DNA from: Phytoactinopolyspora limicola
GTDB lineage: Bacteria; Actinomycetota; Actinomycetes; Jiangellales; Jiangellaceae
Assembly: GCF_011320225.1 (NCBI RefSeq)
Contig: NZ_JAAOEN010000004.1
Location: forward strand, 362,889-426,888
DNA length: 64,000 bases
Direction of reading: 5' to 3'
The notes beneath the pieces are model-generated. The model was not told the DNA's origin. It saw only the letters and a list, made by a program, of their open reading frames with translations, and made no database searches. Of the stretch, positions 6,204 to 17,340 are shown piece by piece (positions within the stretch are counted from its first letter, which is position 1; each line of letters begins with the position of its first letter). A program made the position numbers and the translations under genes.

Positions 6204-6246
6204 TTATCCACAGGTTCGGGGTCCGAGCGCCGATCAGTTATCCACA
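6204..6246 (+). promoter_or_regulatory. Pair of DnaA boxes upstream of the M23 peptidase gene
   Basis: Two perfect TTATCCACA nonamers lie at 6204-6212 and 6238-6246 in the same orientation, 34 bp apart (about three helical turns). The proximal box ends 53 bp before the M23 start. The same arrangement is found in front of yraN (17299-17340). The remaining parts of the 5900-6299 interval show no convincing gene other than the 28-aa ORF. Confidence 0.5.
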
Positions 6247-6299
6247 TTCGCTCGAGACCCTCCTGACAGGGCCGCTCCAGCGGGTCAGGCTCATGCGTC

Positions 6300-7334
6300 A
6301 TGAGCACCTCTCGACAACCGCCGTGGTACCCACACCGCAGCTCGCGGCGGCGCATCGTGGCCGCTGCCGTCGCCGTGGTCATGGCTGTCGCACTCACCCC
6401 AGGAACCCCGCTGGCCAGCACTCACCTGGGCGGCTGGAGTTACCCCGTGGGCCACCACGACGGACCCGCCGACGTCGTGCGTGGATTCGACCCGCCCGAC
6501 GAGCCATGGCTCGGCGGGCACCGCGGAGTCGACCTACACGCCGCCCCAGGCTCGACGGTGCGGGCCGCAGCCGCCGGACACGTCACACACGCCGGACTGG
6601 TCGCCGGCCGCGGAGTCGTCGTCGTGCGGCACGGCACACTGCGCACCACGTACGAACCCGTCGACGCGATCGTCGACGCGGGCACGGACGTCGCCGCCGG
6701 AGCGCCGATCGGTACGTTGAGCACCATCGGCAGTCACTGCCCACCGGCGGCGTGCCTGCACTGGGGCGCTATCGACGGCGAGCGTTATGTCGACCCACTC
6801 CGGCTGGTGCGCTCCCCCGCTGTCCGGCTCCTGCCGCTGGGCGAGCGAACACTGACCGAACGGCCGCCTCCACCACCACGTCGGCCCGAGCCAACCGGCC
6901 TACGATGGCCGGTGCGCAACCCCTACGTCACCTCTCCGTACGGCATGCGCACACACCCCATTACCGGCGTGCGCAAACTTCACGACGGCACCGACCTCCG
7001 GGCCCCATGCGGCACACCTATCCTCGCCGCGGCCGCCGGTGAAGTGGTTAGCGTGGGCAGCCGCGGCGCCTACGGTCTCCAGGTGGGCATACACCACGGC
7101 ACATTCGGCTCGACCACTCTGGCTACGTCCTACAGTCACCTGTCTCGGTTCGCCGTCGAGCGCGGGCAGCCGGTCGACGTGGGCGAGGTGATCGGCTGGG
7201 CCGGCACCACCGGGTTGTCCACCGGCTGCCACCTGCATTTCATGGTCTACGCCGACGGCCGGCTCACCAACCCCACGGACTGGCTGCCCGCGGACGAAGC
7301 GGCGGCGCGTTCCCCGGCCGGCCCCAACCCGTGA
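6300..7334 (+). CDS. M23 (LytM-type) peptidase with two tandem domains
   Basis: A 344-aa predicted secreted peptidoglycan endopeptidase. Residues 1-40 form a signal peptide ending near TPLAS. Domain 1 (about 65-165) keeps HRGVD (H74, D78), but the HxH motif has become CLH (C152, H154). Domain 2 (about 205-330), after a proline-rich linker (PPPPPRRPEP), has intact HDGTD (H228, D232) and HLH (H311, H313). Domain 2 should therefore bind zinc and cleave stem peptides, while domain 1 is probably impaired. An M23 gene sits at this place, next to xerC-dprA, in Mycobacterium and Streptomyces; here rpsB-tsf, its usual left neighbour, is replaced by the importer operon. Confidence 0.9.
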   Translation: MSTSRQPPWYPHRSSRRRIVAAAVAVVMAVALTPGTPLASTHLGGWSYPVGHHDGPADVVRGFDPPDEPWLGGHRGVDLHAAPGSTVRAAAAGHVTHAGLVAGRGVVVVRHGTLRTTYEPVDAIVDAGTDVAAGAPIGTLSTIGSHCPPAACLHWGAIDGERYVDPLRLVRSPAVRLLPLGERTLTERPPPPPRRPEPTGLRWPVRNPYVTSPYGMRTHPITGVRKLHDGTDLRAPCGTPILAAAAGEVVSVGSRGAYGLQVGIHHGTFGSTTLATSYSHLSRFAVERGQPVDVGEVIGWAGTTGLSTGCHLHFMVYADGRLTNPTDWLPADEAAARSPAGPNP

Positions 7335-14207: not shown

Positions 14208-15350
14208 TCAGGTGGCTCCACGCACCCGCACCCACCCATCGTTCCGCTCGGCCACGAGGCCGTCCCGCTCGAGTGTGCGCAGCGCCGAGGCGACGGACGA
14301 GGCGGGATACCCGCTGCCGGCGGCCAGCGCCGCGCCGGTGACCGGCGCCCGCGTCGGCATCCGTTCGTACACGTCACGCACCCGCGGCGGGTAGCGATCC
14401 AACACGCGGTCTTCACCAACCGGCGCGGCCACCGCGTCGACGCCCAACCGACCCGCCGCGTCGACCACCTCGGCCGCGTCGGACACCAGTGTGGCGCCCT
14501 TGTTGCGGATCCACTCGTGGCAGCCCGCGGACAGCTGCGAGGTCACCGGGCCAGGGAGCATCATGACCGTACGGCCCAGCTTGGCCGCCCAATGCGCGGT
14601 GTTCAGCGCACCCGAGCGCAACGCCGCCTCCACCACCACGGTGCCGGCCGTCAACGCGGCGATGATCCGGTTGCGCGCGATGAACCGAGAACGCATCGGG
14701 GTAGCCCCCGGTGGCAGCTCGCTGAAGACCAACCCGGTGCCGGCGATCCGCTCCAGAAGCTCCCGGTGCGAGCGCGGATAGGCGATATCCAGGCCACACG
14801 CCAGGACGGCGAAGGTGCCACCAGCCATCGCCAGCGCACCACGATGGGCCGCGGCGTCGATCCCATGGGCCGCACCCGACACGACCGACCAGCCGAGCAT
14901 GGTGAGATCGGCGCCGAGGTCGGTGGCGACCCGGATCCCGTAGGGTGAAGCCGCCCGCGCCCCCACCACGGCGACTGCCCGCGGGCCCGGTGGGTCGATG
15001 GCGCCGTCGCCCCGCACCCACAAGCCAAACGGCGGTGGGACCGCGTCGGCTCCCGCCACCAAGGTGGCGTCCATGGTCGCCAACTCGGCTGGCCAGGCGG
15101 GATCTTCCGGACAGACGAACCGGATGTCGAGGTCCGCGGCCCGGGTCAGCACGGCGGCGCCGTCGATGCCGGCCGCCCGGCGCGCCAACGCTCCGTCCCG
15201 GTCGAACGGCTGACCACCAGCGACGACGGCCCGCCACGTAGCAACCGCACCGTGCTGGGCGACGTGCCGAGCTACCCGCACCGCGCCGGGTTCGACGACC
15301 GCGGACAGCGCCGCCCGGGCGACCCGCTCATCTCGTGGTGTCGTGCTCAT
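14208..15350 (-). CDS. dprA: DNA-processing protein DprA
   Basis: A 380-aa DprA/Smf protein that loads RecA on incoming single-stranded DNA during transformation. The Rossmann-like core shows VVGARAASPYG, SGAAHGIDAAAHRGAL, SELPPGATP and RNRIIAAL; a C-terminal winged-helix domain (about 315-380) follows. It is the third gene of the yraN-comM-dprA operon: its ATG at 15350 overlaps the comM stop (ATGA). A DnaA-box pair lies upstream of the operon (17299-17340). Confidence 0.94.
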   Translation of the reverse strand: MSTTPRDERVARAALSAVVEPGAVRVARHVAQHGAVATWRAVVAGGQPFDRDGALARRAAGIDGAAVLTRAADLDIRFVCPEDPAWPAELATMDATLVAGADAVPPPFGLWVRGDGAIDPPGPRAVAVVGARAASPYGIRVATDLGADLTMLGWSVVSGAAHGIDAAAHRGALAMAGGTFAVLACGLDIAYPRSHRELLERIAGTGLVFSELPPGATPMRSRFIARNRIIAALTAGTVVVEAALRSGALNTAHWAAKLGRTVMMLPGPVTSQLSAGCHEWIRNKGATLVSDAAEVVDAAGRLGVDAVAAPVGEDRVLDRYPPRVRDVYERMPTRAPVTGAALAAGSGYPASSVASALRTLERDGLVAERNDGWVRVRGAT

Positions 15351-16876
15351 CCGGCCTCCCCTAGGCGCAGCCGCGCCGCTCGTTGGACGTGGTCGGGGCT
15401 GGGTCGTCCGCTCCCGTCGAGATCGGCCACCGTCCAGGCCAGCCGTAGGATGCGATCCATGCCACGGGCGGTTACCGTCCCTTTCCGCAGCTCCGCGTAG
15501 GCCGGCGCCATGGCTTCGACGCTGAGCGGGAACTCACGGCGGAGGAATGCCACCGGGACCTCACCATTAACCCGCCACGGGGTGCCGGCCAGCCGCCGCG
15601 CCTGCCTGTCCCGAGCCTCGGCGACCCGCTCGGCGACCACCTTGGTGGTCTCGGCCAGGCTCAAACCCACGTCGATATCGGTGACGGATGGTGGGACGAC
15701 ACGTTGGTGCAGATCGATACGGTCCCGCACCGGCCCGGAGATACGCCGCTGATAACGCCGTACCGCATGCGGCGGGCATTCACACTCGCGGCTCCGGCTG
15801 CCATGGTTGCCGCACGGGCACGGGTTCTGCGCGATGACCAGCAGGAAGGACGCCGGGAAGACCGCAGTGGAGTTGACCCTCGAGACCACGATCTTGCCGT
15901 TCTCCAAGGGCTCACGGAGCGAATCGAGCACTTGACGCGAAAACTCCGGGGCCTCATCGAGGAACAACACCCCGCGGTGGGCGAGGCTCGCCAGCCCGGG
16001 CCGCACGATGGTGCCCCCACCGATCACCGACGCCATCGAGGCCGAATGATGCGGATCCGCGAACGGCGGCCGCACCACCAGCGGCCGATCCGCCGGAAGC
16101 ACCGCGGCCACCGAGTGGATGACGGTGACGTCAAGCGACTCTTCGGTGGACAGATCCGGGAGCAGGCCGGGGAGGCGGCGAGCCAACATCGTCTTGCCCG
16201 CGCCTGGTGGCCCTTCGAGCCTGATGTGGTGATGTCCAGCGGCTGCGATCTCGATGGCCGCCTTGGCCTCTTGCTGTCCGGCGACCTCGGCGAGGTCGAG
16301 GCCCGGATCCTGCGGCACCGACTCCGGGCCGGCCGCCACCTCCTCCGGCTCCTCGTCCGGGATCTCGGCACCCCGCAGGAAAGCGATCACTTGTCGTAGC
16401 GACCGAGCTCCGACGACGGTCACATCGGGGACCTGGGCGGCCTCGCCGGCATTACGTTCGGGCACCACCACACGTCGTATCCCGGCCTTCGCCGCGGCCA
16501 GAACCGCTGGCAGCACGCCGGGTACTGAACGCAGCCGCCCGTCGAGGGCCAATTCGCCGAAGAAGATCACCCCGCTGGTGGCGGCTGCGGGGATCTCGTC
16601 GGCGGCGCTGATAATGCCAATGGCCACCCCAAGGTCGAAATGGCTGCCCCGCTTCGGAAGCGCGGCCGGCGACAGACTCACGGTGATCTTCTGCAGCGGC
16701 CAGGCCACTTTGCTCGACAACACCGCGGCCCGCACGCGGTCCCGAGCCTCGTACAGCGATGCATCCGGCAGTCCGACCAACGTGAACCCCGGCATCCCGC
16801 CGATGTGTACGTCGATATCGATGAGCGTGCCCTGAACCCCGATGAGCGCGACGCTGCGGCAGCGTCCGAGCCGCAT
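15347..16876 (-). CDS. comM: Mg-chelatase-like AAA+ ATPase ComM (YifB)
   Basis: A 509-aa protein. The N-terminal ChlI domain (GFTLVGLPDASLYEARDRVR) precedes the AAA+ ATPase with Walker A GPPGAGKTML near residue 221 and Walker B LFLDEAPEFS, and a C-terminal MgChlI-type region. A Cys-rich motif (CPCGNHG...CECPP) lies near 350. In bacteria with natural transformation ComM is a branch-migration helicase. The ATG at 16876 overlaps the yraN stop by one base and the stop overlaps the dprA start by 4 bp, so translation is coupled. Confidence 0.94.
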   Translation of the reverse strand: MRLGRCRSVALIGVQGTLIDIDVHIGGMPGFTLVGLPDASLYEARDRVRAAVLSSKVAWPLQKITVSLSPAALPKRGSHFDLGVAIGIISAADEIPAAATSGVIFFGELALDGRLRSVPGVLPAVLAAAKAGIRRVVVPERNAGEAAQVPDVTVVGARSLRQVIAFLRGAEIPDEEPEEVAAGPESVPQDPGLDLAEVAGQQEAKAAIEIAAAGHHHIRLEGPPGAGKTMLARRLPGLLPDLSTEESLDVTVIHSVAAVLPADRPLVVRPPFADPHHSASMASVIGGGTIVRPGLASLAHRGVLFLDEAPEFSRQVLDSLREPLENGKIVVSRVNSTAVFPASFLLVIAQNPCPCGNHGSRSRECECPPHAVRRYQRRISGPVRDRIDLHQRVVPPSVTDIDVGLSLAETTKVVAERVAEARDRQARRLAGTPWRVNGEVPVAFLRREFPLSVEAMAPAYAELRKGTVTARGMDRILRLAWTVADLDGSGRPSPDHVQRAARLRLGEAG

Positions 16877-17232
16877 CAGAACGCCCCACGGACATGCTCG
16901 ACATGTGGTGGCCGCGACGACCGCCGGTGCACGGCGACCACGTCGACCCGTACCGGCAGCCCGGCGCGCCCGTTGGCCTCCAACCACGCCAGGGCAAGCC
17001 GCCGCAGCCGCGCGCCCTTGCGCCACGTGACCGCCTCGAGCCCGCTGCCGTAACCGGGCCCGCTGCGGGTTTTCACCTCGCAGACAACAACGGTGTCGCC
17101 GTCCAGCGCCACGATGTCGATCTCGCCCTCGGCGCACCGCCAGTTACGGGCGAGCAGCACCATTCCTTGATTTTCCAGATACCGGGCGGCGATATCCTCG
17201 CCATAAGCCCCGACACCATCCTTGACTCGCAC
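16876..17232 (-). CDS. yraN: UPF0102 family endonuclease-like protein YraN
   Basis: A protein of 118 aa from GTG 17232, or 121 aa if the GTG at 17241 is used. The nuclease-like core is recognisable: GAYGEDIAARYLENQG, EGEIDIVA and VVVCEVKTRSG, the D...EVK pattern of the restriction-endonuclease fold. GTG 17232 is preferred because GGAGG lies 8 bp upstream. First gene of the operon with comM and dprA, a conserved actinobacterial arrangement. The function is not established; a nuclease role in DNA processing is inferred from fold and neighbours. Confidence 0.9.
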   Translation of the reverse strand: MRVKDGVGAYGEDIAARYLENQGMVLLARNWRCAEGEIDIVALDGDTVVVCEVKTRSGPGYGSGLEAVTWRKGARLRRLALAWLEANGRAGLPVRVDVVAVHRRSSRPPHVEHVRGAF

Positions 17233-17298
17233 CGGCCTCACCTCCGGTCACGAGCCTGTCCCGCGTGGCCCCGGCCGCACCAGGGGTTACCGACGAGT

Positions 17299-17340
17299 TG
17301 TGGATAACTTAGGTCGGCTCAGCTCAACATCTGTGGACAA
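17299..17340 (-). promoter_or_regulatory. Pair of DnaA boxes upstream of yraN-comM-dprA
   Basis: On the minus strand TTGTCCACA (17340-17332) is followed 33 bp later by TTATCCACA (17307-17299), both pointing towards the operon. The proximal box ends about 66 bp before the GTG at 17232. Orientation, spacing and distance to the gene closely match the pair at 6204-6246 before the M23 gene. This suggests DnaA-responsive transcription of both units. Confidence 0.5.

Follow-up and report, generated by a model that had tools for sequence, protein, structure and literature searches.

A DnaA-box-like element with constant promoter geometry upstream of DNA-uptake and recombination genes in Phytoactinopolyspora limicola and other Actinomycetes

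Why do a cell-wall hydrolase gene and the yraN-comM-dprA operon of Phytoactinopolyspora limicola both carry a pair of DnaA-box-like nonamers in front of them? In the window, which is the whole stretch of 64,000 nucleotides that was analysed, one such pair precedes an M23-family peptidase gene and another precedes the operon, and an earlier note had proposed that the pairs tie both to DnaA, that is, to replication status. The four nonamers have the sequences, positions and strands originally described, and both pairs are oriented toward their gene. The corresponding features are as follows.

6204..6212, + strand: box 1 of the M23 promoter, TTATCCACA followed by G, accessory copy (exact match)
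6238..6246, + strand: box 2 of the M23 promoter, TTATCCACA followed by TTC, the conserved element, about 56 bp upstream of the putative transcription start
6263..6268, + strand: predicted -35 of the M23 promoter, CTGACA, at +17 to +22 from box 2 (sequence and aligned promoters)
6286..6291, + strand: predicted -10 of the M23 promoter, CAGGCT, at +40 to +45 (sequence and aligned promoters)
6300..7334, + strand: M23-family peptidase gene with a putative leaderless start at 6300 (Pfam PF01551, E 2.9e-40)
17332..17340, - strand: box 1 of the yraN promoter, TTGTCCACA followed by G (exact match)
17299..17307, - strand: box 2 of the yraN promoter, TTATCCACA (exact match; a box at the matching position in 10/10 Jiangellales-like loci)
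17253..17258, - strand: predicted -10 of the yraN promoter, CAGGCT (sequence and aligned promoters)
16879..17232, - strand: yraN (UPF0102), the gene that opens the operon, with its stop codon at 16876-16878 (alignment; Pfam PF02021 over 16876-17241, E 1.9e-27)
15347..17137, - strand: comM (Mg-chelatase-like), open frame as listed, with the true start probably nearer 16879 than the start of the listed frame (Pfam PF01078)
14208..15350, - strand: dprA (Pfam PF02481, E 3.1e-64)

The gaps between the boxes (N25 for M23 and N24 for yraN) correspond to start-to-start spacings of 34 and 33 bp. The distance from box 2 to the start codon, previously put at about 53 to 66 bp, is 53 nt from the end of the box to the ATG at 6300 for M23 and, for yraN, 57 nt to the GTG at 17241 or 66 nt to the GTG at 17232, the latter being the likelier start on account of the GGAGG upstream of it. 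A YraN search assigned the window to Jiangellaceae, the nearest named match being that of Phytoactinopolyspora halotolerans (76%). Exact copies of TTRTCCACA occur four times in the window, only at these nonamers, against a mean of 0.25 and a maximum of 2 in 100 shuffles, and a double occurrence by chance is improbable, as had been argued. With up to one mismatch the total was 8 versus 9.4 expected by chance, indicating that the signal sits in the exact sites.

The genome scan proposed in the earlier note likewise put the boxes above the control rate, with 73 exact sites in the 6.59-Mb genome of P. limicola versus 30 for the reversed pattern. A start codon was located 50 to 54 nt downstream of 19 of the 73 sites, the other 5-nt bins containing 1 to 11 and the reverse direction 5. 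When the spacing of TCCACA-TCCACA tandem pairs was left free, 14 of the 33 pairs detected in this genome fell within 4 of the 31 permitted spacings (31 to 34 bp start to start), and G followed box 1 in all 14. Thirty-six of the 73 sites were placed inside open frames by a crude gene caller, some of them because gene starts were called too early and others as chance sites.

Downstream genes were read from fetched stretches and named by Pfam and NCBIfam. The targets in P. limicola comprise M23, yraN-comM-dprA, comEA, recA, DUF4192, the head gene of the Tad pilus (actinobacterial Ssd/CpaE-like, TIGR03815), an Flp pilin gene (DUF4244) and two ssb genes, one assigned by Pfam SSB and the other by weak NCBIfam ssb matches below the cut-off. 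They also include about 11 AbiEi-like genes, 7 of which reach the AbiEi_4 cut-off, two of which (L058 and L062) match below it and two of which (L099 and L100) have no Pfam match. The start of the Tad head gene (L095), called at +29, is probably wrong, and a GTG at about +80 fits Jiangella. Single exact boxes with a start codon 49 to 55 nt downstream gave 20 rows, of which 5 were discounted as box 1 copies or chance; this list added comEA (L054) and recA (L055), which are single-box sites missed by the pair search, together with more AbiEi-like genes and one gene for a 115-residue protein (L061). The box-bearing set is thus far larger than two promoters.

A few of the 73 sites look like real DnaA sites. 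Two copies of TTGTCCACA, 55 bp apart and each with a close second box, precede a dnaB-like gene named by reading (G000:C1:474399-474462; L107 4001-4064), an arrangement similar to that of the DnaA site found ahead of dnaB in mycobacteria. Three exact boxes lie in a partly palindromic sequence close to a crgA-like gene, also named by reading (G000:C1:597223-597382; L108 7001-7160), and are similar to the Rv0010c-Rv0011c DnaA site reported in Mycobacterium tuberculosis. In addition, two copies of TTATCCACA form an almost perfect inverted pair between two predicted genes, their starts being 22 bp apart (G000:C12:44091-44121; L035 3001-3031).

Of 40 relatives, 22 had exact pairs, and none had the reversed control. 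Sixty-three of the 68 Jiangellaceae pairs had a total length of 38 to 43 among 31 permitted lengths, and 38 of 39 in the genus Jiangella were exactly 38 bp long. The start-to-start spacing was 29 bp in Jiangella, 27 to 28 bp in two genomes of another family (G033 and G053) and 31 to 34 bp in P. limicola. The three-turn spacing suggested earlier is ruled out as a general rule by this genus-dependent range of 27 to 34 bp. For the 62 distinct pairs of the relatives, the 50-54 bin contained 26 start codons, compared with 0 to 13 for every other bin and 5 for the reverse direction. The genes downstream of the Jiangellaceae pairs encode SSB, YraN, Ssd, ComEA, DUF4192, M23, AbiEi-like, Uma2, AidB-like and DUF2786 proteins, many of these kinds being read by eye and one or a few per kind being scanned with profiles; ComEA was assigned by Pfam and NCBIfam at L187 and by its SLBB domain at L118, and the gene reading left out a single Jiangella pair (G013:C87), located at the end of a contig. 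In G033 and G053, the pair precedes an Ssd-type gene, a comM-containing operon and an AbiEi-like gene, mostly read by eye. A DUF222-HNH gene lies downstream of the box in another family, with DUF222 confirmed only at L141. The AidB-like acyl-CoA dehydrogenase gene preceded by a Jiangella pair (L148, L166 and L176; Pfam AidB_N at L148) possibly provides a link to repair.

In a sample of the class, exact pairs were found in 59 of 148 genomes, with a total of 1 reversed hit. Several of these 59 genomes have pairs that look like oriC. The pairs of family f19, presumably a Streptomyces-type taxon, were rejected as regulon sites since their layout is what we take to be that of oriC. When the search started from the gene instead of the motif, 11 of the 30 class genomes had an exact TTNTCCACA ahead of recA, versus 2.9% of random windows, and the other 19 loci had none; matches at 7 or more of the 8 positions were detected in 21 of 30, versus 11.7% of random windows (the 30 being the loci obtained from 57 recA-positive genomes). 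Genus g16 has a conserved box pair followed by GTTGACGCAGGATAAGCC or a close variant (L139, L222, L223 and L224), twice in one genome, and one such pair with its GTTGACGCAGGATAAGCC-like stretch precedes a DUF167 gene.

The yraN promoter was compared across 79 of 80 loci of named genomes, L256 having too little upstream DNA. All 10 Jiangellales-like loci, one of them from an unclassified MAG, have a box 64 to 66 bp upstream of the gene, and 8 of the 10 have a partner box at 29 bp, with at most 2 mismatches in all. The box pairs of the Phytoactinopolyspora loci L236 and L237 are 40 to 46 bp apart, beyond the range of the scan. Of 39 Arthrobacter-group loci, 38 have a NNNNCCACATA box upstream of yraN, at a distance of 51 or 61 to 62 bp; most of the 61-bp cases have a ribosome-binding site and the 51-bp cases look leaderless. 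Twenty-three of these 38 boxes have C at position 4, off the DnaA consensus, and in Cryobacterium the yraN boxes drift while the oriC region keeps TTATCCACA. In other actinobacteria the element is conserved before dprA operons, for which the earlier note had suggested such a check, and before M23 genes.

An independent set of sites was obtained by scanning four Arthrobacter-group genomes with TTNYCCACATAG, a motif derived from yraN alone, which gave 49 hits versus 5 for the reversed motif. At the 48 distinct sites the start codon fell into the 50-54 bin in 28 cases, with 1 to 7 in the other bins and none in the reverse direction. Of the 29 sites whose start codon falls at 49 to 53, only 6 have a TCCACA anywhere from 12 to 59 bp upstream, indicating that box 1 is dispensable in Arthrobacter. 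Pfam identified the targets as ComEA (L354), RecA (L351, at 109 nt), YraN, M23, DUF4192, RcpC/SAF, a CpaE-like ATPase, AbiEi-like, GIY-YIG and DUF2461 proteins, a DEAD-box helicase, a phosphomannomutase-family enzyme and an FHA protein; the target L328 had no Pfam match. DUF222 assignments at L331 and L337 were dropped for want of a Pfam match, and those of rpsF at L345 and WXG100 at L347 because the names came from reading only. The Arthrobacter form, TTNTCCACATAGC, occurs in 16 of 41 genomes of that family, showing that the motif drifts and that exact patterns miss much.

Alignment of the promoters on box 2 revealed a fixed geometry in three genera belonging to two orders. T was found at +17 in 13 of 20 P. 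limicola, 11 of 15 Jiangella and 24 of 28 Arthrobacter sites, A at +41 in 15 of 20, 9 of 15 and 24 of 28, and T at +45 in 12 of 20, 11 of 15 and 25 of 28, respectively; the start codon followed at +51 to +53. These shared bases would correspond to a -35/-10 pair with the transcription start at the start codon. The centres of box 2, near -56, and of box 1, near -83 to -90, would be the positions of an activator rather than of a repressor. The PafBC-type promoter of actinobacterial recA genes has the sequence TTGTCRGTG-N8-TANNNT. The recA genes of both orders have a sequence that fits it and whose -10 coincides with the -10 position of the regulon; it lies downstream of the box and is not seen at other targets, the box being an extra element about 22 nt upstream of this TTGTC-type promoter. 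A box followed at a near-fixed distance by a TTGTCRGTG-N8-TAGCGT-like promoter was observed at recA in many Actinomycetes (L055, L351 and L450-L479).

Such sites could serve merely to titrate DnaA or could be there by chance, with no role in transcription. DnaA-bound regions do exist outside oriC in mycobacteria, according to the portions of PMC7738170 available to us, and part of the 73 P. limicola sites fits no gene. The constant distance to the start codon, the common -35/-10 positions and the recurrence of the same gene set in two orders make this explanation highly improbable.

A common cis-element stands before pilus, comEA, dprA, ssb and recA genes in the P. limicola genome and in Arthrobacter. 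Because the box precedes uptake, pilus and recombination genes in both, we consider it likely that an activator acts at these boxes and that they define a competence regulon common to Jiangellaceae and Arthrobacter and partly extending more widely in Actinomycetes. M23 and yraN-comM-dprA are very probably co-regulated through this functional-looking element. In the mechanism that we propose, box 2, TTNTCCACA, would lie about 56 bp ahead of the transcription start, and at many targets transcription would begin at the start codon itself, producing a leaderless mRNA, so that box 2 would end 51 to 53 bp before the ATG. Box 1, strong in Jiangellaceae and mostly absent in Arthrobacter, would lie 27 to 34 bp upstream of box 2 at a spacing nearly constant within each genus. 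A protein bound at the boxes would turn on all of the promoters together, leading to the joint production of the Tad/Flp pilus, ComEA, DprA, SSB, RecA, the cell-wall hydrolase and the large AbiEi-like family. The sites, their geometry, their conservation and the genes behind them are observed directly, and from these sequence comparisons we infer activation, leaderless starts and a dedicated regulator rather than DnaA.

Binding by DnaA itself, which would couple DNA-uptake and recombination genes to replication status, is possible but in our opinion doubtful. The core of the regulon box matches the DnaA box, the best boxes of the oriC region agree at position 3 with most Jiangella regulon boxes (TTGTCCACA), and the regulon boxes are nearer to the DnaA consensus than most boxes of the oriC region; use of the same nonamer by an unrelated protein would be a coincidence. 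A DnaA paralogue is ruled out as the regulator, since each of the 24 genomes checked encodes a single protein with the DnaA DNA-binding domain (DnaA_C), which leaves DnaA without a rival of its own kind for this role. In E. coli, DnaA binds in vivo to box pairs 2 to 3 bp apart, and its targets are described as close double boxes at replication, repair and nucleotide genes (PMC11317965, as far as available to us). The regulon sites are instead single boxes or pairs 27 to 34 bp apart, and a close second box, 11 to 12 bp away, accompanies none of 122 regulon boxes and one of 30 Arthrobacter boxes, versus 15 of 28 boxes of the oriC region, both boxes of the dnaB-like promoter and 107 of 20000 in the background, although a close partner is likewise missing from the three boxes of the cluster that is similar to a known DnaA site of mycobacteria. 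The drift of the yraN boxes at position 4 in the Arthrobacter group, and that in Cryobacterium alongside an intact oriC motif, likewise argue against DnaA. In their accessible portions, the mycobacterial DnaA maps comprise five regions, and regulon genes are named at none of them, an argument that presupposes regulon boxes in mycobacteria (PMC7738170). Thus, of the tie originally proposed between the two loci, the shared element stands and co-regulation is very probable, whereas control by DnaA or by replication is disfavoured by the missing close double box and the drift at position 4.

Direct binding by the small HTH_17 protein that emerged from competence screens in Micrococcus luteus (Mlut_14660-like) was also considered. 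In the parts of PMC8467076 available, all but one of the M. luteus mutants with raised comEA/EC promoter activity were changed in one cluster, the change affecting Mlut_14660 itself, the region upstream of it or the SAF gene next to it. The Arthrobacter homologue adjoins a SAF gene and TTATCCACA points at it in three of three loci (L388, L390 and L391), gene names being read by eye. However, the P. limicola homologue L370, chosen from 19 HTH_17 matches in that genome, has no match at E 1e-6 in the Jiangella genomes G017 and G021 or in G033 and G053 of family f13, all four of which have clear regulons. L370 is therefore weakened as a common regulator, and this explanation is improbable.

One of the closest known counterparts of the putative competence regulon is the ComK regulon of Bacillus subtilis, defined by K-boxes. 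In both, promoters of DNA-uptake, ssb, recA and dprA genes carry two boxes at few spacings, but the sequence and the phylum differ, box 1 is dispensable in Arthrobacter and, unlike ComK targets, many of the box targets look leaderless. The transformation system of M. luteus has the same machinery genes (comEA/EC, dprA and two tad clusters), but we found no description there of a cis-element or regulon. According to the sections available of PMC4322843, M. luteus transformation requires Flp pili and ComEC, and no ComK homologue was found. In Rhodoluna lacicola, comEC, dprA and tad genes, with the exception of comEA, are described as rising together in darkness, no motif being given in the portions seen (PMC8591293). 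No prior description of the element was found in the literature searched, a scope that excluded most subscription papers and all preprints.

Whether the regulon reflects an ancestral competence programme of Actinomycetes, under a dedicated activator reading a DnaA-box look-alike and with orphan families among its parts, appears to us evenly balanced. If so, the orphan families, namely, AbiEi-like/DUF559, DUF4192, Uma2 and DUF222-HNH proteins, would perhaps handle incoming DNA. The AbiEi-like and DUF4192 genes gain a first functional context from the element. A 9-bp element with fixed geometry may serve as bait for the regulator, as a reporter for inducing conditions and as a predictor of species that may take up DNA. 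In the available text of a January 2026 paper, the regulon for competence in M. luteus is called "currently unknown" (PMC12849477); the putative regulon described here suggests a common controller of natural DNA uptake.
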